Shown piece by piece: positions 239 through 16,331 of a DNA stretch of 21,959 nt. The DNA lies in IMG/VR virus record IMGVR_UViG_3300025736_000237, positions 1 through 21,959 of that record. One strand, written 5' to 3'. The stretch comes from a virus. The translations under genes and the position numbers were made by a program. Positions within the stretch are counted from its first letter, which is position 1. Each line of letters starts with the position of its first letter. The notes beneath the pieces were generated by a model. That model was given only the letters and a program-made list of their open reading frames with translations. It made no database searches and was not told the DNA's origin.

Positions 239-286
239 GTAACTCTCCTTCGCGGCTTTGGTGAAGTGCGGTCTCGCGGCTACTGT

Positions 287-1150: not shown

Positions 1151-1172
1151 GCTTCTTCACGCTCCTTCTACA

Positions 1173-2174: not shown

Positions 2175-2179
2175 GCCTC

Positions 2180-2635
2180 TCAACTCCTCAGTGTCTTGTA
2201 GGTAACCACGATCTCCGCGTAGCGAAACACCTGCGTTGTGTTCTCGAAGTACTCGCCGATGCCGAAGGTGCAGGCGGTGATATGCCCCACCTTCGCGCCG
2301 TCGAGCGTCCGCACTGTCATCTGGTTTTGGAACTGCCCGAACTGCTCAATGAGGTCGAGCCGCGTGTCCTCAGAAGCGTCCGGGTCCTCCTCGTCGTCTT
2401 TCACCATGAGCAGCACTGCAATACGCGGGTTCGTCCACCACTTGTTGCCGCTGCCGGCGCTTTCCTCGTCGAGCCCCTGGAACGCCACGATCCCGATAGT
2501 GTCCTGCGCCGCAGACATACTGATGGTTCGCTGCGGCCCCCGGCGGAACACGCACGAGGCCAGCGGCTCCACTGCCCACGCGCGGAGGGCCGTGAGGTAA
2601 GCGTCGATGAGTTCCTTCGCCGTCACGTATGCCAC
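2180..2635 (-). CDS. Tail terminator / tail completion protein candidate
   Basis: The product is 151 residues, starting VAYVTAKELIDAYLTAL with a GTG at 2635. The GTG is preceded by a strong GGAGGAG, which lies in the last codons of the upstream gene. Longer in-frame starts would extend far into that gene and lack such a site. The helical N-terminus followed by beta strands (IAVLLMVKDDEE, QMTVRTLDGAKV, YAEIVVTYKTL) fits the small alpha/beta proteins that cap the tail tube in lambda-like phages. The position between the gp10-like gene and the tail genes agrees with this. The assignment rests on size, order and predicted fold rather than a diagnostic motif. Confidence 0.55.
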   Translation of the reverse strand: MAYVTAKELIDAYLTALRAWAVEPLASCVFRRGPQRTISMSAAQDTIGIVAFQGLDEESAGSGNKWWTNPRIAVLLMVKDDEEDPDASEDTRLDLIEQFGQFQNQMTVRTLDGAKVGHITACTFGIGEYFENTTQVFRYAEIVVTYKTLRS

Positions 2636-2639
2636 AGTG

Positions 2640-3095
2640 CTACTCCTCCAGAAGGTCGCCGACGAGCGCCCGGAACTCGCGCTCAATCTTGGGCTTCGCG
2701 GTGTCAAGCGCCGGTTGCAGGTATGGGCGCTTGGGGATGGTCACCTGCATCGCCGTCCGCACCTGCCCGCCAATCTCGAAGACGAGCCGCTGCGCTTTCA
2801 CTGGCTTGATGACCCCGCCGAGTTCGTGAATGCGTCCGTAGATGACTGCGGGGCCGATGTCTGACGCGAGGTCAGCAGGACGGTTCTTCACGCCGATGCT
2901 TCGCCCCAATGCGCCCGTGCTTTTGCCCGTCGTATTGAGTTTCTCCTTGACGTTGATCTTAGCCCCGCGCTGCACCCGCGTTGCTGACTTCTTCACCACG
3001 CCCATGATGCCCGCGTGGGCCTTCTTCGCCGCCTTGTCGAGGACGGCGAAAGCGTTCCCGGCTATCTGTATCCCGAAGCCAATTCCGCCCGGCAT
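2640..3095 (-). CDS. HK97 gp10-like head-tail joining / tail completion protein
   Basis: The product is 151 residues from ATG 3095; the six-base-upstream GTG is too close to the GAGGAGG Shine-Dalgarno sequence. The N-terminal half is a basic helix (KAAKKAHAGIMGVVKKSATR). The middle carries the hallmark arrangement of the HK97 gp10 family: TTGKSTGALGRSIGV, then YGRIHELGG, then IPKRPYLQPAL near the C-terminus. Proteins of this family act at the head-tail junction or in tail completion of siphoviruses. The stop TAG lies four bases before the next gene's GTG, so the two are probably translationally coupled. Confidence 0.75.
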   Translation of the reverse strand: MPGGIGFGIQIAGNAFAVLDKAAKKAHAGIMGVVKKSATRVQRGAKINVKEKLNTTGKSTGALGRSIGVKNRPADLASDIGPAVIYGRIHELGGVIKPVKAQRLVFEIGGQVRTAMQVTIPKRPYLQPALDTAKPKIEREFRALVGDLLEE

Positions 3096-3108
3096 AGCCA
3101 CGCCTCCT

Positions 3109-3522
3109 CTACCTCGTCGGCGTCATCTGGTTCAAGTCAAGCTGCACCTGGTCCCACGGTTCCGGCAACCCGCGTATCTTTTCCTTGCCCAGCACCAGCC
3201 ACTTCTCCGCGTCCGCGTCCGCCACCGCTTGCCAGTGGCCTTCCTCGTCAAGCTGGTATGTCTCCACGAGCCTGCACCCGATGACAAGTTCGTCCGTCGC
3301 GTCACAGAAGCCCGTGTGCGTCAAGCGCAGGGTGTAGTCGTCGGCCTTCGCGATGCGCTCCTGCGCGGAGGTCTGCTGCACCTGCAAGTCCATGCTCACC
3401 AGCGCCGTCTCCCAGTCGGGCGCGTCAACGTCGCCGGTCTCCAGCGTCTCCACGCGGACGCGGTGCGTGAAGTCATTATCGTAGAGGTCGCCGAGCAGAC
3501 TGCCGAGCGTCTCCTGTCTCAT
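3109..3522 (-). CDS. Head closure / head-tail joining protein candidate
   Basis: The product is 137 residues starting MRQETLGSLLGDLYDN. ATG 3522 is preferred over a TTG at 3528 because GAGAGGAC is spaced correctly for the ATG. The sequence is mostly beta (HRVRVETLETGD, DYTLRLTHTGF, ELVIGCRLVETYQL, AEKWLVLGKEKIRG), as in the small beta-barrel stopper proteins that close the head after packaging (SPP1 gp16 type). It lies between the connector gene and the gp10-like gene, the usual place for such a protein. No diagnostic motif is visible, so this is a positional and fold-based call. Confidence 0.5.
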   Translation of the reverse strand: MRQETLGSLLGDLYDNDFTHRVRVETLETGDVDAPDWETALVSMDLQVQQTSAQERIAKADDYTLRLTHTGFCDATDELVIGCRLVETYQLDEEGHWQAVADADAEKWLVLGKEKIRGLPEPWDQVQLDLNQMTPTR

Positions 3523-3543
3523 AGCCAAGTCCTCTCGCGTCGG

Positions 3544-3714
3544 CTACCTGCGGTTCCTGCCGCCGCCACGCCCGCCGCCCGCGCCACCACCGGGGCCTCC
3601 ACTCGGGCACCTGCTGGTGTTACGGTTCGCCCGACGCCCGCCGGTAACTCCACGGCCCGCGCCACTGCCGTTCTGCGCTCCTCTGCGAACTACACTTGCC
3701 CTGCGCGCCGCCAT
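3544..3714 (-). CDS. 56-residue Arg/Gly-rich basic peptide
   Basis: A short frame from ATG 3714 to TAG 3544 fills the gap between the connector and head closure genes. It has a GAGAGAAGG Shine-Dalgarno sequence about ten bases upstream. The peptide is extremely basic and low in complexity: an Arg-rich first half (MAARRASVVRRGAQ) and a Gly/Arg tail (PGGGAGGGRGGGRNRR). Composition of this kind suggests nucleic-acid binding or an unstructured tail. It may simply reflect the GC-rich DNA, although the good start site and exact fit to the gap favour a real gene. No family is recognised. Confidence 0.45.
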   Translation of the reverse strand: MAARRASVVRRGAQNGSGAGRGVTGGRRANRNTSRCPSGGPGGGAGGGRGGGRNRR

Positions 3715-3739
3715 GATACTGCGCCTTCTCTCTCGCGCC

Positions 3740-4135
3740 TTACGGCGCTTCGTCTACCACGTCATCCCGGTCATTGTCGAGGTTCCAGTCGTAGCTGAAG
3801 GTCTCGTAACTCGGGCTGATGATCGCCGACAGCGGCACGTCTTCATCCGACGCCGCCGAATCCACCAGCGCCGCCGCCTGCGCCCGCAAGTCCGCCGCCA
3901 GCTTCGTCAAGTCTTCGCTCACCGCGCCACGCTTCACGCTCACGGTCAGACGCGACCTGTTCGACGCAAGCACCAGCAGCAGCAGCGCCGCCGCCCGCTT
4001 GAGGCTGTCGCCTTCCTGCGTCAACGCCGCCTGCACCTCGTCGTCGTTGAAATCGTGCGAGGCGTAATCCGTATCGGCGACCAGCATTCGCACCTTGCCG
4101 ATGGCGGTCGTCAGATCGTAAGTGAAGACAGGCAT
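3740..4135 (-). CDS. Head-tail connector protein (gp6/gp15-like candidate)
   Basis: The product is 131 residues starting MPVFTYDLTTAIGKVRML. ATG 4135 is preceded by GAGGTGCGAA, the same leader that precedes the capsid protease gene at 7272. The protein is largely helical: TAIGKVRMLVADTD, FNDDEVQAALTQEG, and a long Ala/Leu helix (LKRAAALLLLVLASNRS). This matches the adaptor that docks below the portal in HK97 and SPP1-type phages (gp6/gp15), which share the opening pattern of a short N-terminal helix followed by DD-E-Ax-L. It follows the major capsid gene as expected. The C-terminus is acidic (NLDNDRDDVVDEAP). Confidence 0.6.
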   Translation of the reverse strand: MPVFTYDLTTAIGKVRMLVADTDYASHDFNDDEVQAALTQEGDSLKRAAALLLLVLASNRSRLTVSVKRGAVSEDLTKLAADLRAQAAALVDSAASDEDVPLSAIISPSYETFSYDWNLDNDRDDVVDEAP

Positions 4136-4157
4136 TTCGCACCTCTCTGGCTTTTGA

Positions 4158-4194
4158 GGAAGCGCGCAACCCGCGATGAAAGTCACGCGCTTCC
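4158..4194 (-). promoter_or_regulatory. 9-bp stem-loop after the major capsid gene
   Basis: A perfect inverted repeat (GGAAGCGCG / CGCGCTTCC, 4158-4166 and 4186-4194) with a 19-nt loop lies in the 92-bp gap between the major capsid stop and the connector start. There is no U-run on its 3' side, so it is not a standard intrinsic terminator. A partial attenuator or an mRNA 3'-end stabiliser for the highly expressed capsid message is a reasonable inference. Confidence 0.45.
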
Positions 4195-4227
4195 CCGGCG
4201 GCCATCTGTCAGTCGTGTGAGCGCGGC

Positions 4228-5301
4228 TTAGGTCGTGCCGTCGCTCATGTATGCGCCACGGTAGTCCGCCTGGTCAGCGCCGAAGAAGAACCGGAGCTTG
4301 AATGCGATGTCGTCAGTCAGGAACGTGCCGTCGAAGGGGTTCTCGCCGCCGGCCAGCCGCTGCGCTTCTGCGGCTTTGACGTAGACCTCGGGCTCAGTGA
4401 AGCCGTCGAGGTAACCGTATCGCACTGCGGGGCGAATGCGCGGGTCCGCGAACAGATACCACGCGGTAGTCCCGGCAACGGTGTCGATGGAGGGCAGGAA
4501 GTGCCCGACCTCAAGGTTCGCCTGTCCTGCCACCATGTTCAGGGCCGGGCGTGCGCCGCCAGCGCCAGAGACGACGACGGCGGAATTGAGCAGCCGTCGC
4601 GCCGTGCCTTCGAGTGCCGGAGGAACTACCAGCGTGATCGGCCCGGCGTAGTGTCCGACGTTGCCGGACGGGTCGGCCATCGACCGCAGAGCGGTGATGC
4701 CAGCATCCAGGTTCGCCTCACCGTCATCCCCTGTGAGAACACCAGTGCCGTAGTTGCCGCGGCCAGCGGTGAAGAATGTCGTGTCGCCGGCGTAAGCCGA
4801 AGTGAACACGAACTCCTCCGTATACCTCGCCGACAGGCCCCACGTCGTCGGGTAATCGCCGAGGATGTTCAGGTCGCGACCGTCAGCGAGCCATGCCTCG
4901 AAGGACACGTCCCACTGACAGCCATACTTGCGCGTGGCGAAGTTGTAGTAAGTCTCGGTCGGGTCGATGGGCAGATACTCGCCCTTCTCGTCAACCGCTG
5001 GGATCGTCCGCGCCGCGTTGAGCTGGTAGTCGCGCCCACGTCCGGTCTGGCTGCCCGACACGCCACGAACAAGGTCCTTCGTGTCGCGACGGTAACCGAT
5101 AGCCCCGAACGTGGTGGGGATCGAGTCGTCCAGATAGCCCACCATGACGCCACGGTCGGTCAGGTCGGCCATGTAGGTGAAGTCGCTGGTCGTCTGCGTC
5201 TCCTGCCGACGGCCTGCCTGTGCTACGCGGGTCAGCGATACGAAGCCATCACCCGCGAGGTTCTTCTCGCTTGCGTCAATTCCCATCATGTCGATAGGCA
5301 T
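4228..5301 (-). CDS. Major capsid protein
   Basis: The product is 357 residues starting MPIDMMGIDASEKN, with a GGAAGGAG Shine-Dalgarno sequence upstream of ATG 5301. It shows features common to HK97-fold major capsid proteins of the Mu gpT-like type: an N-terminal segment with QTTSDFTYMADLTDR, the KYGCQWDVSFEAWLADG stretch around residues 130-145, and the late AWYLFADPRIRPAV and GYLDGFTEPEVYV strands. It follows the protease-scaffold and decoration genes in the canonical order. After assembly on the scaffold, its subunits would be matured by the upstream protease. No fusion or truncation is seen. The exact capsid subfamily cannot be named from sequence alone. Confidence 0.85.
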   Translation of the reverse strand: MPIDMMGIDASEKNLAGDGFVSLTRVAQAGRRQETQTTSDFTYMADLTDRGVMVGYLDDSIPTTFGAIGYRRDTKDLVRGVSGSQTGRGRDYQLNAARTIPAVDEKGEYLPIDPTETYYNFATRKYGCQWDVSFEAWLADGRDLNILGDYPTTWGLSARYTEEFVFTSAYAGDTTFFTAGRGNYGTGVLTGDDGEANLDAGITALRSMADPSGNVGHYAGPITLVVPPALEGTARRLLNSAVVVSGAGGARPALNMVAGQANLEVGHFLPSIDTVAGTTAWYLFADPRIRPAVRYGYLDGFTEPEVYVKAAEAQRLAGGENPFDGTFLTDDIAFKLRFFFGADQADYRGAYMSDGTT

Positions 5302-5363
5302 TATTTACAGGTCTCCTTCCTCTACTACGCTACTCGCGATCTGTGCGCGTTAGGTCAGTTGGT

Positions 5364-5768
5364 TCACGCGTCCGGCGACGGCCAGAACTTGACGCCGATG
5401 TCGTCGGTCGTGCCGGTGGCGAGTGCCTCCATAGCAGTGCCGAGGGCAACGCCGTTCGTTGCGTCCTTGTTGACCTCGCCGCCAGCCTCGTCCCAGTACA
5501 GCCAGTCGCCGATATTCACGGCGCTGTTTCCGCTGTTGTCGACCGCGTGGACCTCGATGGTGTGTCCGCCGGTGAGGTCGAGGACGATGGAGCCTGCGTC
5601 GTGGTTGTAGTCATTGAGCGCGATGCCGATCATGGCCCCGTAAATCACGAGGTCGCCGCTGGTCGCGGCTGCCACGGTCGTGTCGGCAGTAACCAGTGTG
5701 AAATGCTGGCCTCCACCTTCGCTGAAAAACTCCGACTTGTCATTGGTCTCTACATAGGTCGCGGGCAT
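5364..5768 (-). CDS. Capsid decoration (cement) protein, DUF2190-like
   Basis: The product is 134 residues starting MPATYVETNDKSEFF, with AGGAGGT before ATG 5768. It is a small beta-rich protein with the organisation of DUF2190 phage proteins: a segment like SGDLVIYGAMIGIALNDY, then a hydrophobic strand ending in a value-like phrase (GSIVLDLTGGHTIEV), then GDWLYWDEAGGEV and a closing GVALGTAMEAL. Members of this family sit beside the major capsid gene and decorate the head surface. It lies between the protease-scaffold and the major capsid genes, which is typical. Confidence 0.72.
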   Translation of the reverse strand: MPATYVETNDKSEFFSEGGGQHFTLVTADTTVAAATSGDLVIYGAMIGIALNDYNHDAGSIVLDLTGGHTIEVHAVDNSGNSAVNIGDWLYWDEAGGEVNKDATNGVALGTAMEALATGTTDDIGVKFWPSPDA

Positions 5769-5838
5769 GATTAGAACCTCCTATGCCCTAACTTGATTTG
5801 CGTTGTGGACGTTGCGGCTTCGCCACCTCGCGGCTTCG

Positions 5839-7272
5839 TTACCGTGCGCCCATGAGCTTCTCAATCTCGTCGGTGGAATGGCCGGCGTCCTTGAGGCGCT
5901 GCGACAGGTTCGCCTCATACGCCTCCTGCGTCTCCTTCGTGACCGTGGGCACCGTCGCGCCTGCGCCAGTTACCCTCGTGCCGCCGCCGATTTCCTTCAG
6001 CAGCGCCATCTCGTGCTCCTTCGCGCCTTCGACGGCCTCCTGCACGCGAGCGGGGAGGTCGGCAGCGGGGATCGCCTGTCCAGCGAAGCCCGCGATGATG
6101 CGGGTCCGCGAGGCGTCCGCCAGACCCTCGGCTTCCTGCACGAGCCGCGTCACTACCTCAGCAGTGTCGCGCTTCGCGTTGTCGGCCTTCATCTCCGCGA
6201 TGATCGCGTCCTGCGCGGCGGTCTTCGCGTCAACGGCCTCCTGCACTCGCGCATCGAGCGCCGAGCCGTCCGGGTCAGCGGCTGCCTTCGCAGCAGCGTC
6301 CGCGTCAGCCTGCTCCTTCGCGGCCTCGGCTTCCTGCGTCCGCTTGTACTCTGCGACTGCGGCCTCGCTGTCCTTTGCGGCCTGTGCCTTCGCAGCCTCC
6401 TGAATGCGCGCCTCGATAGCCTCAACAAGGTCGGGCCGCACCTTCGCGAGTTCGTCTCCGGTCAGCTTGTCCATCTCCACGTCGATCATCCTCTCCGTCT
6501 GTGATGCGGCCTCTAAGACTCGTCCGTGCGCGTTACCCGCTGGAACCAAGTCAACCGAATAACAATCAGTCAACCTGTCAACAACCTCGACGGTGTTCCC
6601 GTCAATGCGTCCGGGATAGTAGGCAATCCCAAGGTCCGCCGACAACCCCACGGCTTTCTTCGCAATGGGGTCATCCAGAATGGCTTGTGCTTCGGGGGTG
6701 TGCGCGTGGGCAACGGCGGTGACTGCGCGCCCGTTCCACTTCACGCTGCCCGCTTTCACGGTCGCGCCCCACCCGGTCAAGTCACGGTGGCCGCGCGTCG
6801 CTTGCGCCTTGACGGGCTCGTGATTGATGCACATTTTCGCGTCGTCAAACAGCCCCTCTGCGACCGCCGTCTGTAGCGCGGCCTCGGGGTAGTAACGCTT
6901 CGCGTCGGCAGTGAGACCGTATGCGATGATCTCAATACGGTGGTCGTTGTCGCCGAGGGCGTCGCCGATGGTGGTAGCGCCCGCTTCCTGTGTCCTCAGC
7001 AGAACGTGGTGGGGCTTGCGGTCGAATGGGGGGATGTCACTCACTGCTTCCTGCGTGTCGGCTTCGTCCGGTCGCTTGACCCACGCGCCGTCACTGACTT
7101 CGTATGCCTGCTCGAAACGAGACCACGCGACCGCCCACGCCTCGTCAGCGCCGCCGTCTACCTCTACACCATCGGCGACCTCAGAGACCCAGTTAGCCTG
7201 CGCCAGAGTGAGCGCAACGTCCTTGTGCGTCGCGACCTGCGGCGGGACTTCCGACAGGTTGGCGTATGGCAT
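5839..7272 (-). CDS. Capsid maturation protease with N-terminal ChaB-like segment and C-terminal scaffold
   Basis: The product is 477 residues. ATG 7272 is chosen because GAGGTGCGAA sits directly before it; a GTG four codons upstream overlaps that site. Residues 1-55 (MPYANLSEVPPQVATHKDV, then AWAVAWSRFEQAYE) resemble ChaB-like segments found at the front of some phage proteases. Residues about 110-255 form the serine protease: candidate catalytic His151 (MCINHEP), Ser211 (VGLSADLGI), and the closing SVDLVPAGNAHG. The remainder, about 265-400, is a long Ala/Glu/Lys coiled coil typical of a fused scaffold, ending in a short tail (TDEIEKLMGAR). Such proteins organise the procapsid and then cleave scaffold and capsid subunits. 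Confidence 0.82.
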   Translation of the reverse strand: MPYANLSEVPPQVATHKDVALTLAQANWVSEVADGVEVDGGADEAWAVAWSRFEQAYEVSDGAWVKRPDEADTQEAVSDIPPFDRKPHHVLLRTQEAGATTIGDALGDNDHRIEIIAYGLTADAKRYYPEAALQTAVAEGLFDDAKMCINHEPVKAQATRGHRDLTGWGATVKAGSVKWNGRAVTAVAHAHTPEAQAILDDPIAKKAVGLSADLGIAYYPGRIDGNTVEVVDRLTDCYSVDLVPAGNAHGRVLEAASQTERMIDVEMDKLTGDELAKVRPDLVEAIEARIQEAAKAQAAKDSEAAVAEYKRTQEAEAAKEQADADAAAKAAADPDGSALDARVQEAVDAKTAAQDAIIAEMKADNAKRDTAEVVTRLVQEAEGLADASRTRIIAGFAGQAIPAADLPARVQEAVEGAKEHEMALLKEIGGGTRVTGAGATVPTVTKETQEAYEANLSQRLKDAGHSTDEIEKLMGAR

Positions 7273-7283
7273 TTCGCACCTCA

Positions 7284-7307
7284 CGTCTTGCGTGTGTTAT
7301 CAAGACG
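7284..7307 (-). promoter_or_regulatory. Stem-loop next to the ribosome binding site of the capsid protease gene
   Basis: A perfect 7-bp inverted repeat (CGTCTTG / CAAGACG) with a 10-nt loop ends immediately before the GAGGTG Shine-Dalgarno sequence of the gene starting at 7272. It lies between that gene and the tRNA. There is no U-tract, so termination is unlikely. It could separate the tRNA from the mRNA during processing, or tune initiation of the protease-scaffold gene. Confidence 0.4.
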
Positions 7308-7310
7308 AGG

Positions 7311-7352
7311 CTTTGCAGCGCGGACTTTGCAGCGAGGTTGGACTTTGCAACG
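7311..7352 (-). repeat. Three short direct repeats beside the tRNA 3' end
   Basis: The 10-mer CTTTGCAGCG (plus strand) occurs at 7311-7320 and 7325-7334, with a one-base variant CTTTGCAACG at 7343-7352 that reaches the tRNA acceptor end. Spacings are 14 and 18 bp. No gene is seen between 7273 and 7350. The cluster could mark local slippage or a recombination site; no function is evident. Confidence 0.4.
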
Positions 7353-7441
7353 GGGTGGCAGGAATCAAACCTGCGACCTGCAGAGCAACCGGCGAACCCA
7401 CACAACCGGCTTCTACCGCTCTACCATTGAGCTACACCCCG
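7351..7441 (-). tRNA. tRNA-like gene with enlarged anticodon loop (identity undetermined)
   Basis: The minus strand folds as a tRNA everywhere except the anticodon loop. The 7-bp acceptor CGGGGTG/CACCCCG is perfect. Then come TA, the D arm GCTC-AATGGTA-GAGC, G26, a 5-bp anticodon stem GTAGA/TCTGC (one G-T pair), the variable loop AGGTC, and the T arm GCAGG-TTTGATT-CCTGC. CCA is not encoded. Between the anticodon stem halves there are 27 nt instead of 7. They contain an 8-nt direct repeat (GCCGGTTG, 17 nt apart) and can extend the stem with AGCCGG/CCGGTT. No normal T33-anticodon loop can be placed, so the amino acid cannot be assigned. The gene is a defective or remodelled tRNA, or one with an insertion. 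Its 5' end overlaps the stop codon of the gene ending at 7432. Confidence 0.65.
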
Positions 7442-7629
7442 GCACTCCGCAACCACTTCTTCGCGTAGTAACGCGCCGTCTGGCGCGGGTTCTCTACTCC
7501 ATCGTGGCCACGCGATTCGCCGATGAGTTCTTCACCGTGGTATACCCAGACATATCGGCGGCCAGGCAATGCCCAGTGGAACAGCGTGCGGAAATCATAC
7601 CCGTCTATCGTGAACGTGTCAATCTCCAC
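7432..7629 (-). CDS. 65-residue hypothetical protein upstream of the tRNA
   Basis: The product starts VEIDTFTIDGYDFRTLFHW from GTG 7629, which has a well-spaced GGGAGGT Shine-Dalgarno sequence. A longer TTG start at 7689 would add a low-quality leader. The middle (RRYVWVYHGEELIGE) reads as two beta strands, and the end (TARYYAKKWLRSAGV) as an amphipathic helix. The fold may be a compact alpha/beta domain. No family is recognised. The stop codon lies inside the 5' acceptor/D-arm region of the tRNA, so mRNA and tRNA processing would interfere with each other if co-transcribed. Confidence 0.55.
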   Translation of the reverse strand: MEIDTFTIDGYDFRTLFHWALPGRRYVWVYHGEELIGESRGHDGVENPRQTARYYAKKWLRSAGV

Positions 7630-7714
7630 CCGGCACCTCCCGCTCTTGGAGGATTGCGCGGTATTGCTTGCCGCACTTGCAAGTCTCAAAGCAACCCCTC
7701 TGCGTCGGGGCCGG

Positions 7715-7924
7715 TTACAGTGACTTGTTTGCCCAATGCATCATTTGCGTCCAGTCATCCTCGGTCATATCCTGCCTTTGTTTCAGAGGAACAAAGAGAA
7801 GTTCTGTGCTGCCCTTCTCCATCTTCACATTGTCGGTGTTGTTCGGGCCAGCCTCAAACGTGATAGACCACCCGTCAGTTACGCGGCTCAAACTGGATGC
7901 CGTGGTCACCTGAGTAAGGCTCAA
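7715..7924 (-). CDS. Small acidic hypothetical protein (69 aa, start uncertain)
   Basis: The frame opens at a TTG (7924) with GGGAGAAG upstream, inside the 3' end of the 55-residue gene, an overlap of about 50 bases. A later ATG before EKGSTELLFVPL is an alternative start. The part beyond the overlap (VTDGWSITFEAGPNNTDNV, then EDDWTQMMHWANKSL) looks like a genuine small beta-plus-helix protein. It lies in a group of short genes downstream of the portal-MuF gene. No family is named with confidence. Confidence 0.55.
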   Translation of the reverse strand: MSLTQVTTASSLSRVTDGWSITFEAGPNNTDNVKMEKGSTELLFVPLKQRQDMTEDDWTQMMHWANKSL

Positions 7925-8042
7925 TGTGGTCGCTTCTCCCTTCCCAAATAGCGTCAGGAATACCCTCGGGAAATGCCGCGCACGCCCGCTCGCCGTCGTG
8001 GTAGTGCTTGCATTGGAGGCATATCGGCAACAGGAAACTCAT
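7875..8042 (-). CDS. 55-residue cysteine-containing phage protein
   Basis: ATG 8042 lies one base after the portal-MuF stop codon; the stop is TAA? no, TGA at 7875-7877. The protein begins MSFLLPICLQCKHYHDGE, followed by ACAAFPEGIPDAIWEG and GDHGIQFEP. The pattern C-x2-C...C, then FPEGIP-x-I-x2-G, then a PYSGDHGI-x-FE ending is one I recognise from small proteins that often sit beside MuF-type head genes in phages. The cysteines (C8, C11, C21) suggest metal binding. The function of the family is not known to me. Tight spacing implies translational coupling to the portal-MuF gene. Confidence 0.75.
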   Translation of the reverse strand: MSFLLPICLQCKHYHDGERACAAFPEGIPDAIWEGRSDHIEPYSGDHGIQFEPRN

Positions 8043-8043
8043 A

Positions 8044-11000
8044 TCACTTCAGCCCCATAGTTTGCTCAAACACTGTGCGCAGGTGCGGTGACAACATCTT
8101 AGAGCGATAGGTGCCGCGCTGCAATTCCACGAACGCCTCGGACAACGCTTCATCCCACGAACTTGAGGCATACGCACTGAATAGGTTCATCTGCTCTTTG
8201 GCAAAACGCTGCCACTGCGAGCTTACAGAACTGACGGGAATACCTGTCGGCATTTGCCACTCTATGCCATGCGCCGCTTCGTGGAGTGCTATGTCGGCAC
8301 TGCTACGGCAACTCGTGCCAGCCACAAACTTCTGCTTGGCAATCGCCAAGTCGATACTGCCGTCACTGGCGAACAGGCTTACCACGTCACCTGCCGCGTT
8401 CACTGCTTCAAGTTCTTCGGCTTTCTCGCCAAGGACGTATATCATATCTTCAAGGCCGGGCTTGCCAACCTCTCGCGGTCCTATCTGCATGGTGTGGGTA
8501 AGGATACGGCCCTCATCATCAACGATGTTTGCCGACAGCCGCCCACCGTGCCGCGACCACATTTCCACCTCGTCAATAACCACCGTCTGTCCGTTGGCCT
8601 CCAAGCGCCCCATTGCATGGGCCACTTCCTCCAGCCGATTCGCCTTGTCCTGCGCTGATACTTCCCACCCGTATTGCTCGAACCCGGCTTCGTCATACTT
8701 GACCGCCACGCCGCGTTCGGCAAACCACTTCTCTCCGTCTTCTGGCGTGGCGAAAGAGGGTGACGCACTCGGCGCAGCCGCAGGCGCGGGCGGCGCTATC
8801 GCTCCTCGGATCGGCGCGGCGCTTGTGCGCGCTGCCTCTGTCAAGGGCTGGTAACCTCCGAGCCACGGTTGCGCTGGCAGGTCTGTCTCGTCGTCGATAA
8901 CCGGCAACTCGTCGCACCGGCAGTTGCACACGTTTCCTGCGCTCGCCCCCGGATCGCCGGGGTGTTGCATGGCCTCGCCGCCAACGTCGAACGCGTCATC
9001 TATGCGCCGAACCTGTCCGTGCGCGGCGGCGTGGTCCGCGCGGGTCTCGCTATCCAGCAGCGTCAACCATTGCTTCTTCTCCACGCCATTCTGCACATAC
9101 GCTTCATGGCCCACGGTGCCCTGCGCGACGAGCGTTTCCGTCCGCGCGATGTTCTCCGCACGTCCAGCATACGTTCGCGGGAATATTTTGTCAATGCGTT
9201 TCGCGACTTCTCGCGGCCCCTGGCCCTCCGTGTAAAACTCCCGCGAGAGAGTATCGCGCAGGTTCTCGAGCATCGTCTGCGACACTTCGCCAGTGATCTT
9301 GACGCCACGCGCCTGCAACTCATTGAGGAGTTTCGGGTCGCGCAGGTTAAAGACGAAGGCCTCGCCCGCCGCCGCGTTCCACTCCTCGCCTCGTGCCAAG
9401 CGTTCGCGGAGGGTCTCGCCCTCGCGGTTTGCCACGGCCTCTGTGCGTCGCGCTGTGAACGGTGCCGAGAGCGCCGCAAGTATCGCATTCACTGCGCCCT
9501 GTCCGCCGATGTTCCCGGCCTTCAGCGTGAACTCGTCCAGCGTCTCGCGGAGGGCAACGGCGTCCGGCGGCACCTCGCGCCGCAGGGTCCGCGTCAGCGC
9601 CCTCTCACTTGGCGCGTAGTCCAGTGTCTCTAACCACCGCTTGATGTCCTTGTGCCACGGGCTTATCACCCGGCGCTGCAACGCCCTCGCGAACTTCACC
9701 TCCAGCGCATCGAGTTCCCGTCTCAGCTCAAAAGGGCGCACCGCCTCCTGGCGTCGCGCTTCCTGCGCGGACTCTTCGGTGGCTTCCTCTTCGTCGGGCG
9801 CGGGCGGGATTGCGGCGTCTGCCTCGGGCACGTCCACGCCGCCCTCGTCCTCGGCGGCCTTGCCTTCCATCTTTGTCTGCGGCGGGTACTGCTCCTCCAT
9901 CACCTCGGCAATGTTATTGGTGCCCAACGCCACGTAAGCTTGATAGCTCGCTTCCTGCTGCTCCACAATCCCTGCTGCTACTGCCGCAGGCAACGCCGTC
10001 AACAGCGTCGCGGTAGACTCCGGCGTGCGTGGCTGCGCAGGCGGCATGTTTATGTCAATCGCAGTGTCTACCTTCAGCGGCAAGCTCACGAACGGGGCGC
10101 GGGTCTCAGCACGGACGCGGCCAATCGCGAACTGGCAGAGGTCATTCCACGTCCCCCGATACATCGCCTGCCTGTCGTCGATGCGCCAGATAGCCGGGAG
10201 TTCCATTGCAGTTGCCGTTGCCAAGTTACCGGAGTTGCCCTGAATGGCGACCTTCCCGTTACGCCGGGTCACGAAGAATCCGGTCGGCACTTGATAGCAC
10301 CAGACGGTTCCCTGATATACCTCGCGGCTTATGTTGCGGGGAACTACGCCAGCTTCTCGACGCGTTGAGCCATTAATAGCCCAGATGCCATCAGCATGTT
10401 TTGCGATATTCGCTTGCCACCCCAACAATAACGCCGCCACTTGGAGCCCGTCAACGAGTTCCTTTGACATAGACTTGTAGCAGATATTGTTTCCGTTCTT
10501 GCCGTTCCTCGTGCCGTCCCCCTTTACTGCTGCGTCCCATAGGCGCTCCAACACACTGATAGGCCACAGCGCGCTCCCGTCTGGTAGCCGCTTCGTATAT
10601 GAACCAGTTCCGCATTGTTCGCGGAGCCACGTCCAGAGGCGCTTGTTCTGGAAGTTGAAGTTTATCACGCCGTTGCAGTCCAGTTCATGCACTGCCCACG
10701 GGAGGCGCTCAAGCAGAGCCCGAATATCATCAGCGTCCGCGCCGGGCTTCTGCGCGATGCTAATGCGGTAGAATATCCGCTTCTCGCGCTTGCTAGTGCG
10801 CTTGCGCAGGACGGTTCGGGGATCGCCATTCTTCTTCAACGGTCCCAGCGTACTTCCCTCAGAGACGAACCACCCGAGGAATGTTCCCACGTCTTCAGGC
10901 GATACCCCCTCAAACAGCGCCGCGCCCTCTGGGTCATCAGTAAATATCGTGGAGCCCTGCACCGCGCTATCAGGCGCAGTGCGGAATGACCACCCCGCAC

Positions 11001-12492
11001 TCCGCGAATCCAGCGTATTTGCAGGCGTGACATTGTACCCACGGTCGAGTATCTCCGCGCCGCCGTCTGCTATGCGCGGACGCCCCGCCTTTCCTTCGGG
11101 ACGAGCCCCCTCGGGCGGCAGGCGTTTTGACTGGCTGTTCGGGCGCGCAAGCATACGGTGGTCTTTTGTCACGGCAATATCCTGCGCCCGCGTCGTGATA
11201 TGGACGATCTCTTCGTCCACCTCAAACTCGTGAAGCTCAATGGGTTCCTGCCACTGAATTTGATGCTGCCCCGGATGGTAGCAGGCTATGCGCGTGCCGT
11301 CCTCCACGTCCTTGTAATTGCGCCAGCCGTCCTCCGTCAGCACTTCCGTATCCGCAGTGTAACAGGACGAGTCACCGTAGAAATGCTCGCCGAACCCGAA
11401 CGGGCGGATCGCCTCAAGCAGCGTCTCGCGCGAGGCCCCTGTCAAGTTCGTGCTGCCTCCGGTGCCGACGTTGACCGGCGTCGTCTTCACGTTCTGGTTC
11501 TCGGCCAGCACCGCCGCGTCGCCGGGAGGAGGCGTCTTCATCTGGTCTGCCATTGCCTTCAGCGTCGCCGCGCTCTTCGTCGTGACCTGCCGCTGCCAGG
11601 CGAACATCGCCAACGCCTTCGTGAGCGTCACGAGGCTACGCACTGACCGCGCGTGCGCCTTCGACCAGTCGCTCATACGGTGCGCCTCGGGGACGCCGCG
11701 CAAGCCGAGGGTGTTCGTCTTCACCTGGTATAGCGCCGCGTCCTCCTGCAAGTTAGTCCCCGCCTCTGCGAACAGCACCTCTGCCGCGTCGTCTTCGCGC
11801 TCCTCTGCCTCCATGAGCCACGGGGCATAGCGCCAATCGCGGTAGTACCAGACGACCGTCTCCGTCGCGGGCGTATACTGCCCCGAGCCGACGTTCAACA
11901 CCTGCGGGCGGAACTCCCGCCGATACATTACGGGCTTGCGGCGGTTCTCCGGGTGCGTTATCACCTGCGTGATCTCGCCCACCGCGAGGTCGGCGACCTT
12001 CACCTGGTCATCAGCGTCGCTGGTATGCAGTGAATACCACTTCTCGCCTTCGACTATGAGCGCGAGGTTCAGGAGTATCTGGGCCTCGCGACCGAAGACG
12101 CTCAGCTGATTATCCGGGTCCTCCCAGAAGCGCGTGACGACCTTCTCCACGCGGCTGTCCGTCGCGGTCGGAGTGCCAATGCCGCCGCCGAGCGCGCCCG
12201 ACTGGAGCAGCATCGCCGCCTGCCCGAGCGTGGGGTCATTCTCCCATAGCACGATGCAGGTGGAACGGATGTCTTCGAGGTCAGACGCGCTGATGTCCAT
12301 AGCGCCTGCACCACCACCGCCGGTCAGCGACAGCCAGCCCTCGCCCTCCGCGTCGAGTTCGCGCTTGAGGTTCGCGCTGACGGCCTCTGCCACGCGGGAG
12401 AGTTGCGCCTCCGCGCGGTAGTAAGCGTCGGAAGCGGCGCGTTCGGCGTCAGTGGGCTCGTGGACGGGCTTGCTACGGTCGAATATGCTCAT
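8044..12492 (-). CDS. Portal protein / intein / MuF head morphogenesis / metallopeptidase-like fusion
   Basis: The precursor is 1482 residues from ATG 12492 (TGAGGT Shine-Dalgarno; ATGA overlap with the preceding small gene). Residues 1-376 and about 754-950 are a phage portal protein; the join reads GDSS then SGNLATATAMELP, a typical portal motif. Residues 377-753 are an intein, listed separately, so the spliced product should be 1105 residues. Residues about 1070-1200 form the MuF-like domain (EFYTEGQGPREVAKRID, NIARTETLVAQGTVGHEAY, and the ending GNVCNCRCDELPV). After a Pro/Ala linker, a C-terminal domain carries HEAAH at 1404-1408 and a later WDEALSEAF with Glu1448 and Glu1452. That resembles a zincin metallopeptidase site. 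The portal starts head assembly and is the DNA entry channel. The MuF domain is usually a separate gene, so this fusion is unusual. Confidence 0.85.
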   Translation of the reverse strand: MSIFDRSKPVHEPTDAERAASDAYYRAEAQLSRVAEAVSANLKRELDAEGEGWLSLTGGGGAGAMDISASDLEDIRSTCIVLWENDPTLGQAAMLLQSGALGGGIGTPTATDSRVEKVVTRFWEDPDNQLSVFGREAQILLNLALIVEGEKWYSLHTSDADDQVKVADLAVGEITQVITHPENRRKPVMYRREFRPQVLNVGSGQYTPATETVVWYYRDWRYAPWLMEAEEREDDAAEVLFAEAGTNLQEDAALYQVKTNTLGLRGVPEAHRMSDWSKAHARSVRSLVTLTKALAMFAWQRQVTTKSAATLKAMADQMKTPPPGDAAVLAENQNVKTTPVNVGTGGSTNLTGASRETLLEAIRPFGFGEHFYGDSSCYTADTEVLTEDGWRNYKDVEDGTRIACYHPGQHQIQWQEPIELHEFEVDEEIVHITTRAQDIAVTKDHRMLARPNSQSKRLPPEGARPEGKAGRPRIADGGAEILDRGYNVTPANTLDSRSAGWSFRTAPDSAVQGSTIFTDDPEGAALFEGVSPEDVGTFLGWFVSEGSTLGPLKKNGDPRTVLRKRTSKREKRIFYRISIAQKPGADADDIRALLERLPWAVHELDCNGVINFNFQNKRLWTWLREQCGTGSYTKRLPDGSALWPISVLERLWDAAVKGDGTRNGKNGNNICYKSMSKELVDGLQVAALLLGWQANIAKHADGIWAINGSTRREAGVVPRNISREVYQGTVWCYQVPTGFFVTRRNGKVAIQGNSGNLATATAMELPAIWRIDDRQAMYRGTWNDLCQFAIGRVRAETRAPFVSLPLKVDTAIDINMPPAQPRTPESTATLLTALPAAVAAGIVEQQEASYQAYVALGTNNIAEVMEEQYPPQTKMEGKAAEDEGGVDVPEADAAIPPAPDEEEATEESAQEARRQEAVRPFELRRELDALEVKFARALQRRVISPWHKDIKRWLETLDYAPSERALTRTLRREVPPDAVALRETLDEFTLKAGNIGGQGAVNAILAALSAPFTARRTEAVANREGETLRERLARGEEWNAAAGEAFVFNLRDPKLLNELQARGVKITGEVSQTMLENLRDTLSREFYTEGQGPREVAKRIDKIFPRTYAGRAENIARTETLVAQGTVGHEAYVQNGVEKKQWLTLLDSETRADHAAAHGQVRRIDDAFDVGGEAMQHPGDPGASAGNVCNCRCDELPVIDDETDLPAQPWLGGYQPLTEAARTSAAPIRGAIAPPAPAAAPSASPSFATPEDGEKWFAERGVAVKYDEAGFEQYGWEVSAQDKANRLEEVAHAMGRLEANGQTVVIDEVEMWSRHGGRLSANIVDDEGRILTHTMQIGPREVGKPGLEDMIYVLGEKAEELEAVNAAGDVVSLFASDGSIDLAIAKQKFVAGTSCRSSADIALHEAAHGIEWQMPTGIPVSSVSSQWQRFAKEQMNLFSAYASSSWDEALSEAFVELQRGTYRSKMLSPHLRTVFEQTMGLK
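10234..11364 (-). other. Intein with LAGLIDADG homing endonuclease inside the portal protein
   Basis: This 377-residue insertion starts at Cys1 (CYTADTEVLTEDGWRNYKD, splicing block A). Block B has the TxxH motif (DIAVTKDHRML, intein residues about 62-72). Endonuclease motifs of LAGLIDADG type appear at residues 161-171 (TFLGWFVSEGS) and 271-284 (VLERLWDAAVKGDG). The C-terminal block is WCYQVPTGFFVTRRNGKV then IQGN, followed by Ser as the first C-extein residue. The penultimate residue is Gly rather than the usual His, which is known for some functional phage inteins. Removing it restores a continuous portal motif. The stretch looks more A/T-rich than its flanks, consistent with horizontal arrival. 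Both endonuclease acidic residues (Glu, Asp) are present, so it may still be active. Confidence 0.92.
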
Positions 12493-12653
12493 AGTAACCT
12501 CAATTCGCGCTCTGTGCGAGCGGCGAGACGGCGGAGCCGCCCCTTCTCTGCACGTTGCGAATCGCGCCATCCCCAGAGGTGACCTTCCTGCTTGTTCAGC
12601 AGAAACGGTGTGGGCCTGTCGGCGCGTGCGGGTGTACCGTTGTCTTCGCTCAT
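12489..12653 (-). CDS. 54-residue basic peptide, coupled to the portal gene
   Basis: The frame runs from ATG 12653 to a TGA that overlaps the portal ATG (ATGA). It has GTGAGG upstream and its own start overlaps the stop of the preceding 36-codon frame. The peptide starts MSEDNGTPARADRPTPFLLN and ends in an Arg-rich helix (AARTERELRLL). No family is recognised. The tight overlap on both sides supports translation. Confidence 0.5.
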   Translation of the reverse strand: MSEDNGTPARADRPTPFLLNKQEGHLWGWRDSQRAEKGRLRRLAARTERELRLL

Positions 12654-12760
12654 AGCTGCCTCACTTGGCTACTCTGGTCCGTCGCGGTCGAGCAGGTCTT
12701 CGCTGATGCACGCGTTGCGGACAAGTCTGCGGGTTGGTTCTCCTCCAAGAGGAGCCTCAT
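12650..12760 (-). CDS. 36-residue hypothetical peptide
   Basis: ATG 12760 overlaps the stop codon of the preceding gene, and its TGA overlaps the next ATG. The peptide starts MRLLLEENQPADLSATR and is Ser/Thr/Ala-rich. There is no strong Shine-Dalgarno sequence of its own, so expression would depend on reinitiation. Its main support is that it closes the gap perfectly between two overlapping neighbours; it could be chance. Confidence 0.35.
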   Translation of the reverse strand: MRLLLEENQPADLSATRASAKTCSTATDQSSQVRQL

Positions 12761-13461
12761 CAAGGCCCGTTTCTTTGAGGTGCTTTTGCACCCGCATCCA
12801 GCACCGCCGCCAGCCGCGACTTCATCTCGCGCGTGGCCTCGTCGCGGGCTTCGCATTTCAACTTCTCCACTGCCATGAGCCAAGTCTCGCGTCCTCGCCC
12901 TCCAACAGGCAGGCATACTGCACATGCGGCATTCGCGAGTTCACCATGAAGCTCCTGTTTGTAGGCCAGTGCCTTTGTGAGCGAAGTCTGCATGTGCGCC
13001 TTCTGCTCGTGCAACTCTGCGACCTCCGCCGCTGCCTCCGCTTCCTTCTGCGCCTGCAACACCTGCCACTGCGCGTCTCCCGCCGCCTTCATCGTGATAG
13101 TCTCGCTGCTTTCCTCAGGCGTCACCGTCGTCTCCGTGATCGTGAAGTTCCTCGGCACTGCGTCTACCGCGTCCTCGATAGCCTTCCACTGCGCTGCCTC
13201 TGTGTAGTCGGTCCTCAGTGTTACCGCGTCAGCAGTGGCAATACACTCGGCGACGAACGTCGCGACGCGAACGCACAGTGCTTCGTCCTTTGCGCTGGTT
13301 ACTGGCAGTTCCGCGTAAGCTATCGGTTCCCCCTCGTGCCGCATGACAACCCGCGCCCCCGTGTAGGTGCGCGCTATCCTGCCTCTCGGCGACAACACTT
13401 CAAGCGCCACCGGCCACTCCACGGTGATGATGTAGCCCTTATACTCAATCTGCTTCTCCAT
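12760..13461 (-). CDS. Coiled-coil hypothetical protein (233 aa)
   Basis: ATG 13461 is preceded by GGGAGG in a leader motif (AAGCCGCAAAGGGAGG) shared with other genes here. The N-terminal 100 residues look like a beta-rich domain (YKGYIITVEWPVALEVL, ARVVMRHEGEPIAYAEL). Residues about 130-185 form a coiled coil rich in Ala, Glu and Gln (QVLQAQKEAEAAAEVAELHEQ). A short Cys pair (ACAVCLPVGG) and a basic helix close the protein. It sits between the large terminase and the portal gene, where phages often keep unrelated small genes. No function can be assigned. Confidence 0.65.
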   Translation of the reverse strand: MEKQIEYKGYIITVEWPVALEVLSPRGRIARTYTGARVVMRHEGEPIAYAELPVTSAKDEALCVRVATFVAECIATADAVTLRTDYTEAAQWKAIEDAVDAVPRNFTITETTVTPEESSETITMKAAGDAQWQVLQAQKEAEAAAEVAELHEQKAHMQTSLTKALAYKQELHGELANAACAVCLPVGGRGRETWLMAVEKLKCEARDEATREMKSRLAAVLDAGAKAPQRNGP

Positions 13462-13507
13462 CAGTCACGGCCTCCCTTTGCGGCTTCGCTTCATCGCGGT
13501 TGCGACC

Positions 13508-15028
13508 TCACTCGTCCATCCAACCCCCGAATTCGTCGTCCACCCAATCCTCGAGGACATCCTCAATCCCGATAGTATCCTGCTCCTCAAACTCCAGCGG
13601 CGTGAACGCCAGTGCGCCCGCGTCCGCCTCGTCCGGCGACGGCAGGCCCCGCGCGCGCATCGAGTCCTTACTCTCTATCTTCACGCGGCCCTTCGCGTCG
13701 TATCCGTAGCGCATCCCCGATACCTGCGCAGTGAGCCGGTCTACCTCCGCGCCGGTCGCCGCCACCACCAGGTCCGGGTAACCGTTCCCCGCCTCAGCAT
13801 ACTCGCGCAGGTTCCAGAACATTTCGGCGCGCTTGTTGGCGAAGCGGTCGCGGTCGATTGCGCCGCCGCCGAACTGGACTCCCACGTATCTGACTCCATT
13901 ATCACTGCGAGCGTGGAGAATGTCAACCGTTCCGCCACCTACGCCGCCCGCGTCCACTGCCACGAGGACTTCACCGCTGCCCTTGTGCGTGTGCGCCAGA
14001 CGCCGCGCTGCTTGCGCTGCGAGGCCCGCCACCTGCGTCGCGGGGGTATCACCGGGGTATGAGGTCAACGAGGTGAGCGTCGTGCCCACACGCTCCGCTA
14101 TGGACGTGCTGTCACCGCCGAAGCGCGCTACGTCAACGCCGACCTGGAGGTTCCCTGTCAGCGGGTCGGGGACTTCGCGTTGCCGCGCGCCCTCCATCCA
14201 CGCAAGCGGGACGATCACCGCCTCCGCGTCCTCCGCCGGGAACTCTGCAAGCACCTTCGCCTGATAGAGCGGCGTGTCCTCGCCCCACGTCGCCTTCGCT
14301 TCCTCTACCCACTCGCAGCTCGTGAGGTGCGCGGCCAGCACGGCAGATACGTCCTCACCTGTGAAGTTCGGCGTGGAGGAGGCGGGTATGCTAATGCAGT
14401 GGTAGCCGAGTTGGGGCTTCTGGAACGCGTCGTAGAAACGCCCCGCCGGTCGAAGTGGGTTGCCAATGAGGAGTTCGCGGTATTCGCCGCCAGTGCCGAG
14501 GGAAGCGATGGCGTCGTAAATATCATCGGGCACGCCGGACGCTTCGTCCACGATGACCATGAGGTGCGGGCTGTGTATGCCCTGAAACTTCTCCGACTCG
14601 TTCGTGGAACGCCCGTAAGCCTCGTGACCGGGGCCGAACCGCAGGGAAGCCTTCATGCACTCGCCTGCCTGCTTGATGTCGGCGATGCGCAGTTCCCCCC
14701 ATGCGAGATTGACTTCTTTCCAGAGTAGCTTCTCTACCTGGTTCCACGTCGGGGCGGTGGTGATGACCTCTGCGGGGTGACGCGTGCTGAGGAACCAGAT
14801 AGCGATGCGAGCAGCAAGCCAGGTTTTTCCTGGCCCGTGGGCCGACCGCACCGCAACGCGCTTGTGCCGCGAGACCGCCTGTGCCACCTCGCGCTGCTTC
14901 GACCAGAGTTCCGTCCCGAACGCGAAGGGGAGGAACTCGTCCGCGTTGTCGCGAAAGCGCCTGCCACGGGCGGCCTGCTCGGAGGTCGCGCTGCGCTTGC
15001 GGTTAGCTGGTCTCGTGGCCGTCGCCAC
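13508..15028 (-). CDS. terL: Terminase large subunit
   Basis: The product is 506 residues from GTG 15028, which has GGAGGGGAG upstream. The ATPase domain has Walker A at residues 62-69 (SAHGPGKT) and Walker B at about 157-162 (LMVIVDEAS), with the coupling segment LIGNPLRPAGRFYD near 187-200. The C-terminal RNase H-like nuclease has its acidic residues at Asp299 (VGVDVARFGGD), Asp359 (LVAVDAGGVGGG) and Asp466/Asp469 (SPDEADAGALAF). Together these motors cut concatemeric DNA and pump it through the portal. The gene starts inside the 3' end of the preceding membrane protein gene, a 26-bp overlap. No intein is present in it. Confidence 0.95.
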   Translation of the reverse strand: MATATRPANRKRSATSEQAARGRRFRDNADEFLPFAFGTELWSKQREVAQAVSRHKRVAVRSAHGPGKTWLAARIAIWFLSTRHPAEVITTAPTWNQVEKLLWKEVNLAWGELRIADIKQAGECMKASLRFGPGHEAYGRSTNESEKFQGIHSPHLMVIVDEASGVPDDIYDAIASLGTGGEYRELLIGNPLRPAGRFYDAFQKPQLGYHCISIPASSTPNFTGEDVSAVLAAHLTSCEWVEEAKATWGEDTPLYQAKVLAEFPAEDAEAVIVPLAWMEGARQREVPDPLTGNLQVGVDVARFGGDSTSIAERVGTTLTSLTSYPGDTPATQVAGLAAQAARRLAHTHKGSGEVLVAVDAGGVGGGTVDILHARSDNGVRYVGVQFGGGAIDRDRFANKRAEMFWNLREYAEAGNGYPDLVVAATGAEVDRLTAQVSGMRYGYDAKGRVKIESKDSMRARGLPSPDEADAGALAFTPLEFEEQDTIGIEDVLEDWVDDEFGGWMDE

Positions 15029-15350
15029 CGTGTCTACTCCCCTCCGCTATTTTTGCGCCCCAGAAAGCCTCGCGCTCAAGACATGCCCTGCGGGCCGCGT
15101 CGTTCTCCGCAGCCCTCGTCCTGTAATCATCAGCTTCTTGGCGAGCGACTCGCATATTGCGTCGCCACTCAGCGCGTTCCTGCTCGGTCATAGAAGGGTC
15201 GCCGCCTCTTTCGCGCAATTTGGAAACCCAAAAGTGCCGCTTCTCTGCCAAGACCTCCCGCGCAACACTCCTCCACAGTCCCCACAGTATCACGTTGAAG
15301 CCCAGCGATATGCCCAGCGCGATAGCCAGCCACAGAACCGTTGCGCTCAT
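15003..15350 (-). CDS. Small membrane protein with cytoplasmic coiled tail
   Basis: The product is 115 residues starting MSATVLWLAIALGISLGF. A single hydrophobic helix spans residues about 4-26; the remaining 90 residues are highly charged and helical (EQERAEWRRNMRVARQEADD). Its ATG overlaps the preceding gene's stop (ATGA), and its end overlaps the large terminase start. The layout of one N-terminal membrane helix and a charged coil is reminiscent of spanin or holin-like accessory proteins, but the position beside terminase genes and the lack of a partner make that speculative. Confidence 0.65.
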   Translation of the reverse strand: MSATVLWLAIALGISLGFNVILWGLWRSVAREVLAEKRHFWVSKLRERGGDPSMTEQERAEWRRNMRVARQEADDYRTRAAENDAARRACLEREAFWGAKIAEGSRHGGDGHETS

Positions 15351-15814
15351 ACCGGGTCGCCTCCCGCCTCGGCGTTCATCAGGAGCGCGAGTTCGTGAAT
15401 GGCCCTGGATACCCGCGTCTCAGATGTCCCGCCAACTCCCCATATCGGCACCATCGGGGTGTGAACGCGGGCGGCATTTAGACACGCTAACTGATACTCA
15501 AAGGCCGATATATCATTTGCGGTTGTTGGGTTGGGGTGCCGCGCCCGCAGTTGTTCTTTGTTGGCAACAGCCTCCAGCACTTCCCTCCGCGTCATCATCG
15601 GCTTGTCCGGCCACCCACGCTCCTTCGCGAAGGTCACGGCGGCGTCAAACCACTCGTGGGCAGCGCGAGCGCGAGAGATCAACTCCTTCAATTCTTCGGG
15701 TATTTTACTCCAAAACGCCCGCTGGGGAAGTTGCCAGTTCTTGCAGTCTTTTAGCGCCTCCCATGCCTCCTCTGCGTCCGCGAACTCGTGCTTGAAAGCC
15801 TTCTGCTCACTCAT
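15347..15814 (-). CDS. Hypothetical protein, paralogue of the gene at 21267-21902
   Basis: The product is 155 residues. ATG 15814 overlaps the terminase small subunit stop (ATGAGTGA). Residues about 73-155 (TRREVLEAVANKEQLRARHP, then NAARVHTPMVPIWG and SRAIHELALLM) match the C-terminal half of the protein at 21267-21902 almost residue for residue, and the DNA is closely similar. The N-terminal half (HEFADAEEAWEALKDCKNWQ) differs and contains a Trp-rich helical segment. It is a soluble, charged protein with no recognised family. Confidence 0.65.
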   Translation of the reverse strand: MSEQKAFKHEFADAEEAWEALKDCKNWQLPQRAFWSKIPEELKELISRARAAHEWFDAAVTFAKERGWPDKPMMTRREVLEAVANKEQLRARHPNPTTANDISAFEYQLACLNAARVHTPMVPIWGVGGTSETRVSRAIHELALLMNAEAGGDPV

Positions 15815-16331
15815 CGCTTGCGCCTCCCTGTCCGTCCTTCGCTGCTTCGCTATCCGCGTCCTCCGCGTCCTCGGCCTCCCACTTCTTCACCGCATCGAAC
15901 CAGCCCACCTCGTGCTGGATCGGACCGCCGTCAGGGCCGGAATGCTCCGACCTCAGTTTCAGGTCGCCAAGTTCGTCGCGTATGTCCCTGAGCGTCTCGC
16001 GGAGTTCCTTGTTCACCGTCGTGAAGCCGCGCCCTCCGGCCCGCGTGTCGTCTATCATCCGCTTCGCGTTGCGCTCCAACACGCCGAGACGAGCGATGCG
16101 ATTGCAGAGGCCCTGTGCGGCGGCTGTCTCAAATGCGTCGGCGTAAGCGGCGGCGATTTCCTCCGCGTGCGCTTTGCGGTAGTAGTCCACGCCCTGCCTC
16201 GTGATTTCCACGTCGAACTCCGCTTTGATCTTCTCGGATATTTCGGCACTACGCAGCCCCTCGGCAAGCCACGTTATGACCTGCCTCTGCTGCGCCTCCG
16301 TCAGTTTTGACATTCGCGGCTCGTCGGGCAT
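15807..16331 (-). CDS. Terminase small subunit candidate
   Basis: The product is 174 residues from ATG 16331; a second ATG six codons in lacks a ribosome site. Residues about 8-55 (LTEAQQRQVITWLAEGL, then IKAEFDVEITRQGVDYYRK) form a helix-turn-helix domain similar to DUF2280-type phage DNA-binding domains. A central coil (NKELRETLRDIRDELGDLKL) would oligomerise. The phrase SEHSGPDGGPI before an acidic tail is typical of small terminases. It is the first structural-operon gene after promoter 16371-16399 and lies upstream of the large terminase with two short genes between. DNA site recognition for packaging is the expected role. Confidence 0.7.
   Translation of the reverse strand: MPDEPRMSKLTEAQQRQVITWLAEGLRSAEISEKIKAEFDVEITRQGVDYYRKAHAEEIAAAYADAFETAAAQGLCNRIARLGVLERNAKRMIDDTRAGGRGFTTVNKELRETLRDIRDELGDLKLRSEHSGPDGGPIQHEVGWFDAVKKWEAEDAEDADSEAAKDGQGGASDE

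Follow-up and report, generated by a model that had tools for sequence, protein, structure and literature searches.

A viral gene that combines portal, intein, MuF and zincin-like modules in a single chain

Background

In phage SPP1, the portal targets gp7, the MuF protein, to the interior of the procapsid (PMC6316719). MuF effectors have been proposed to be injected, MuF-metallopeptidases are among the published MuF polymorphic toxins, and most of the phages that carry MuF toxins are temperate (PMC5576092). Portal-MuF fusions are carried by Microbacterium phages (PMC7302621), and inteins inside the portal are known from cluster C1 mycobacteriophages (PMC5050341). Effectors fused to portal domains have been published as well, those described in the excerpts of two papers being 2H, NudE, InPase, PBECR and ART (PMC5512222, PMC9503650). 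Here we analyze a viral gene from the window (the whole stretch of DNA studied, an IMG/VR virus record of 21,959 bases) in which these themes meet.

Gene and module layout

The minus strand of the window carries a head module in which the large terminase (13508-15028) and a 233-aa gene are followed by the gene of interest, a prohead protease homologue (5839-7284), a decoration protein (5364-5768), the major capsid protein (4228-5301) and a neck protein (2640-3101). Lysogeny genes are absent from this fragment. The gene is a single, stop-free ORF (12492..8044, minus strand) whose translation comprises 1482 aa. It starts at ATG 12492, with GAGG 5 nt upstream, so that the protein begins with MSIFDRS; the alternative ATG at 12570 is a poorer start. 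The order of the modules is portal, intein, remainder of the portal, linker, MuF, Pro/Ala linker and zincin-like domain, and the features of the locus are as follows.

8044..12492, minus strand: portal-intein-MuF-zincin gene (P0001), 1482 aa, the same in contigs L002 and L003
11365..12492, minus strand: N-terminal part of the portal, residues 1-376 (phrog_10963, E 6e-29, profile positions 2-325; blastp matches to named portals)
10234..11364, minus strand: intein with LAGLIDADG-type endonuclease, residues 377-753 (Cys1 ... Gly-Asn/Ser)
9823..10233, minus strand: C-terminal part of the portal, residues 754 to ~890 (phrog_10963 positions 362-481)
9742..9867, minus strand: acidic, Pro-containing linker between portal and MuF, residues ~876-917 (from the sequence; sits between the two profile matches)
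8881..9741, minus strand: MuF protein, residues ~918-1204 (PF04233 at 1088-1193; phrog_2468)
8758..8835, minus strand: Pro/Ala-rich linker ahead of the zincin, residues ~1220-1245 (from the sequence)
8047..8757, minus strand: zincin-like domain, residues ~1246-1482 (hhalign to the MuF-zincin family)
8269..8283, minus strand: HEAAH motif, residues 1404-1408 (from the sequence)
8137..8172, minus strand: YASSSWDEALSE, residues 1441-1452, with the candidate third zinc ligand Glu (from alignments)
7875..8042, minus strand: 55-aa CxxC protein (homologues adjoin virion zincins)
5839..7284, minus strand: 481-aa homologue of prohead protease/scaffold proteins (blastp match, E 7e-8, with the protein in the same place of MT835568)

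Two other contigs contain the same gene. L003 is 100% identical to the window over 7737-15893, the gene included, and L002 is 99.96% identical over 47-15941, with 6 differences, all at 15894-15936 and thus outside the gene; both encode the identical 1482 residues. The identical ORF in these contigs makes an assembly error very unlikely, whereas a local peculiarity is still conceivable because the samples are possibly related. Together with the stop-free frame and the profile matches described below, these contigs bear out the sequence-only reading that portal, intein, MuF and a metallopeptidase-like domain lie in one gene.

Several other elements of the fragment were recorded. Between the portal gene and the protease gene, amid the head genes, lie a tRNA-Arg (anticodon ccg; 7350-7441, minus strand) and two small minus-strand ORFs (7432-7689, 85 aa, and 7715-7924, 69 aa) without a Pfam match. 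Furthermore, the segments 21298-21525 and about 15372-15599, within the ORFs 21267-21902 and 15347-15814 near the terminase, share 83% DNA identity and represent a duplicated part of a gene.

Portal, intein and MuF

Apart from the match to phrog_10963, residues 1-376 retrieved in blastp the portals of Glutamicibacter phage Montesquieu (E 1e-16) and Brevibacterium phage LuckyBarnes (E 1e-15). With the residues that follow the intein (754 on), the alignment to this profile resumes at positions 362-481, a match that is weak when taken alone (E 0.03). The intein thus splits a single portal profile at about position 361 and, because the same profile is found on both sides, lies within a conserved portal segment, which is continuous in the intein-free portals of the relatives. 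The 377-residue intein opens with CYTADTE and holds TKDH and two LAGLIDADG-like (DOD-like) motifs. The hallmarks of inteins are present, namely C377 (Cys1), the block B TxxH at T442-H445 and the N753/S754 junction, with Gly, not His, as the penultimate residue. Curated intein models all scored below their cut-offs (TIGR01445 at 17.8 bits; Hint_2, LAGLIDADG_3 at 22.3 against a cut-off of 22.5), and in tblastn the closest match (E 1e-12) is the intein of a nucleotidyltransferase from a mycobacteriophage. The intein would presumably be spliced out of the precursor.

The MuF part matches PF04233 (E 4e-14, above the cut-off) and phrog_2468 (E 2e-40), and also aligns to positions 522-713 of the portal-MuF family phrog_2662 (E 2e-26), keeping every column that is conserved among the fused relatives. 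Its nearest relative, 51% identical, belongs to a 788-aa portal-MuF fusion (L004). The portal half behaves differently: phrog_10963 is the sole profile that residues 1-376 match, the portal segment of the phrog_2662 profile is not matched, and there is no significant blastp match between the portal half and any of 21 fused portal-MuF ORFs. In phages with the portal type of the window, portal and MuF are normally neighbouring, separate genes. Given that the portal half is unlike the fused portals and that its own relatives are unfused, the chain of the window goes back either to an independent fusion event or to recombination between lineages.

In 21 of 80 viral MuF loci, MuF terminates an ORF and is preceded there by 350 residues or more, and all 20 fused ORFs that were scanned hit the portal PHROGs 2662 and 12; contrary to the initial claim that they are uncommon, portal-MuF fusions are therefore common. 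In about a dozen other loci, a stand-alone MuF protein is encoded in which HExxH follows the MuF domain, and none of the 80 combines portal, MuF and zincin in one chain. Full-length portal-MuF frames are also present in bacterial genomes, one of them (L178) with an intein in the portal. To call the fusion to the portal itself notable was accordingly an overstatement: a portal-intein-MuF gene occurs elsewhere, and effector fusions to portal or MuF have been published.

Two sequence details deserve mention. In the bacterial genome contig L178 (1-3219), the intein of the portal-MuF fusion occupies a portal site different from that in the window. At the portal-MuF junction of the window, where a stand-alone MuF gene would begin, AGGAGG is followed 2 nt on by GTG (residue 918; 9741-9749, minus strand), possibly a relic or a weak internal start.

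The C-terminal zincin-like domain

The C-terminal domain contains HEAAH and YA-x5-E (1441-1448, Y1441/E1448), and the combined zincin motif, which was defined post hoc, occurred in 0 of 200,000 shuffles. The C-terminal sequence of the window itself had zero library hits. No close relatives of the domain were detected in phages (E<1 with the domain as query, E<10 with the core) or in genome contigs and no significant ones in plasmids (best E 3), and neither phmmer against the ORFs of the collected loci nor a small zincin HMM gave anything significant. The failure of the HMM searches indicates that the zincin homology is remote, and no relative of the zincin subdomain nearer than that was found.

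For a profile-profile comparison, we used a family that was seeded by a DNA pattern for HExxHG-hydrophobic-EW. The pattern scan identified L104, in which a 583-aa MuF protein encoded directly downstream of a separate portal gene also bears YASKNASETMAEAF in its tail, and further members came from Streptococcus phage IPP23 (MuF-zincin) and a second motif scan. Compared with this MuF-zincin family by hhalign, the tail of the window protein scored 39.9 (E 2.8e-5), against best scores of 24.1 for 150 full shuffles and 30.1 for 150 shuffles that kept HEAAH, the latter being the fairer control because the first family member was found via the motif of the query. Other portions of the 1482-aa protein scored no higher than 14.8 against the family. 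With a profile-profile match above all 300 shuffled controls, the proposal that the last module is zincin-like holds, and the domain, as judged from the alignments, is shared with the tails of other MuF effectors. The MuF-zincin tail of Flavobacterium phage lotta8-1 aligns to the same family with an hhalign E of 2.6e-11.

The AlphaFold model of the domain, built with remote homologues, was poor (mean pLDDT 51), and the best PDB matches of this model in Foldseek, to PPEP-1, were not significant (E 0.1 or worse). The homologous zincin family reaches Pfam ATLF PF07737 (E 6.5e-4) and M34 structures (E 0.005), which we interpret as a fold relationship only; the same relation to ATLF/M34 has been reported, in an excerpt of PMC5512222, for the zincins of polyvalent phage proteins. 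The predicted zincin might function as a zinc peptidase. With respect to base composition, the intein (GC3 0.67) and the C-terminus (GC3 0.65) both lie below portal plus MuF (GC3 0.81), each with a z of about -5, which fits two separate acquisitions.

Outside MuF proteins, the same type of zincin motif (AYGRKNRREMVAEAFADVYENG) is found at the end of two long bacterial proteins (L117, L118), which come from a genome sample of the Clostridium class.

Possible fate of the portal-borne zincin

We favour, with roughly even confidence, a scenario in which the spliced portal subunit holds its MuF and zincin extension inside the capsid, and the effector is freed by proteolysis and enters the cell with the DNA. 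Splicing would remove the intein from the precursor and leave a portal subunit of about 1105 aa, the C-terminal extension of which, MuF followed by zincin, would face the capsid interior. Because the portal ring nucleates the head, the fusion would guarantee that MuF and zincin are loaded, with up to one copy per portal subunit. The zincin would be an effector of the type seen on stand-alone MuF proteins, probably freed by a cut in one of the flexible linkers (~876-917 or ~1220-1245), with either the phage prohead protease or the zincin itself as the cutting enzyme, and would then pass into the host cell along with the DNA.

The portal remains in the virion particle, so that delivery of a zincin fused to it would need proteolysis. 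Thus, the suggestion that the effector is positioned for delivery with the DNA stands in part: packaging in the head is the most plausible outcome, but a portal-attached domain must first be cut. The 12 copies envisaged in the sequence-only reading follow from the stoichiometry of the portal; this number presupposes that all chains remain fused, and could be altered by processing. In this favoured scenario, effector loading would be tied to portal assembly at fixed stoichiometry, which raises the question of the exit route of a portal-fused domain from the virion.

The same persistence of the portal in the virion is compatible with a zincin that is never delivered but stays bound to the portal and works, or merely sits, in the head, for instance, trimming internal proteins or shaping DNA exit. 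As the 20 effector-free portal-MuF fusions demonstrate, a portal can carry MuF without any effector. We consider this possible but doubtful, because the zincin family is otherwise found as variable tails of MuF proteins, as expected of effectors, and because the C-terminus has a base composition of its own. Should the fusion stay uncut, the head rather than the host may be where MuF effectors act.

Alternatively, the zincin might be a self-processing peptidase that mainly cuts the portal-MuF chain to free MuF from the portal. An excerpt of PMC5512222 proposes self-processing for the zincins of polyvalent phage proteins, exemplified by P1 DdrB, and the MuF of the window is flanked by two flexible Pro-containing linkers. 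The same zincins are also present on MuF proteins unfused to the portal and hence are not needed only for separating portal and MuF, which makes this role unlikely. It is quite improbable that portal and MuF-zincin are additionally made as separate chains from the internal GTG at 9741: the AGGAGG behind which this codon lies, one of two in the gene, is located exactly at the expected start of a stand-alone MuF, but at a distance of 2 nt the two elements are too close for initiation to be efficient, and no stop interrupts the frame. Some phages with portal-MuF fusions have no recognised maturation protease (PMC7302621), a role that the zincin could in principle fill; we rejected this very improbable candidate given that a separate 481-aa prohead protease homologue is encoded in the usual place and that lotta8-1 possesses a related MuF-zincin plus an annotated protease. 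Finally, there is hardly any chance that an assembly or sequencing error fused two genes, the outcome that would have undone the original reading: the nearest portals do come from phages with separate portal and MuF genes, but portal-MuF fusions exist in other viruses, and the ORF recurs identically in two other contigs, unless these share the same reads.

A small CxxC gene next to zincins

Directly past the stop codon of the 1482-aa gene begins a 55-aa ORF with the CxxC motif CAAFPEGIPDAI. Its homologue in lotta8-1 (52% identical in tblastn) overlaps the end of the MuF-zincin gene, and the one in Brevibacillus phage Jenst lies one gene past a virion protein whose C-terminal domain is zincin-like and shares the DEAEKW/EDGEKW start with the domain of the window. 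Thus, the gene adjoins zincins in three phages, of which lotta8-1 and Jenst are unrelated. In bacterial genomes, the full zincin motif was detected upstream of 1 of 14 copies of the CxxC gene, with one more (L183) being a likely variant, against a background of 0 of 86 strands, so that there the link is weak.

From its genomic context, the 55-aa protein is a candidate partner or immunity protein. Combined with the favoured scenario, this suggests a portal-tethered, injected zincin that is released by linker cleavage and controlled by the cognate CxxC protein encoded immediately downstream; as a whole, this proposal is tentative and distinctly doubtful. If true, the 55-aa family would comprise immunity or partner proteins of virion-borne zincins, and the recurring small gene beside such zincins provides a testable partner.

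A different short ORF (~50-70 aa) is located downstream of each zincin gene in six other loci (L104, L125, L116, L127, L131 and L132). Several of these ORFs contain a P-x-x-I-[RK] motif, and they possibly encode partner proteins.

Comparison with known systems

The chain of the window resembles different known systems in different parts. The order portal then MuF in one chain is the same as in the phrog_2662 fusions (717 aa), gp33 of Streptomyces phage mu1/6 and the Microbacterium clusters EA3/EA5/EA8/EB (PMC7302621), whereas the portal itself belongs to phrog_10963, a family different from that of the phrog_2662 fusions. Furthermore, the 21 fused portal-MuF ORFs extend at most about 50 residues past MuF, without an effector tail, in contrast to the zincin tail of the window. 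The portal inteins of cluster C1 mycobacteriophages (PMC5050341) are likewise inserted in the portal, with no mention of MuF or zincin for those proteins. The bacterial portal-intein-MuF gene in L178 (G880) shares an intein-bearing portal fused to MuF, but lacks the zincin and has another intein site.

At the C-terminal end, the MuF toxins with a metallopeptidase domain (PMC5576092) combine MuF with a C-terminal zincin as in the window, but are not fused to a portal. The same applies to IPP23, L104 and lotta8-1, where MuF is separate from the portal and the C-terminal zincin contains HExxH and YA-x5-E-xx-[AS]EAF, as in the window. Published portal-effector fusions also attach an effector to a head protein located at the portal vertex, but, in the excerpts of PMC5512222 and PMC9503650, the enzymes are others, and none is a zincin on a portal-MuF chain. 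Each module is already known in phages, and so are most of the pairwise fusions; what is new, and was found in no other virus, is the four-part chain built on the portal type of the window.
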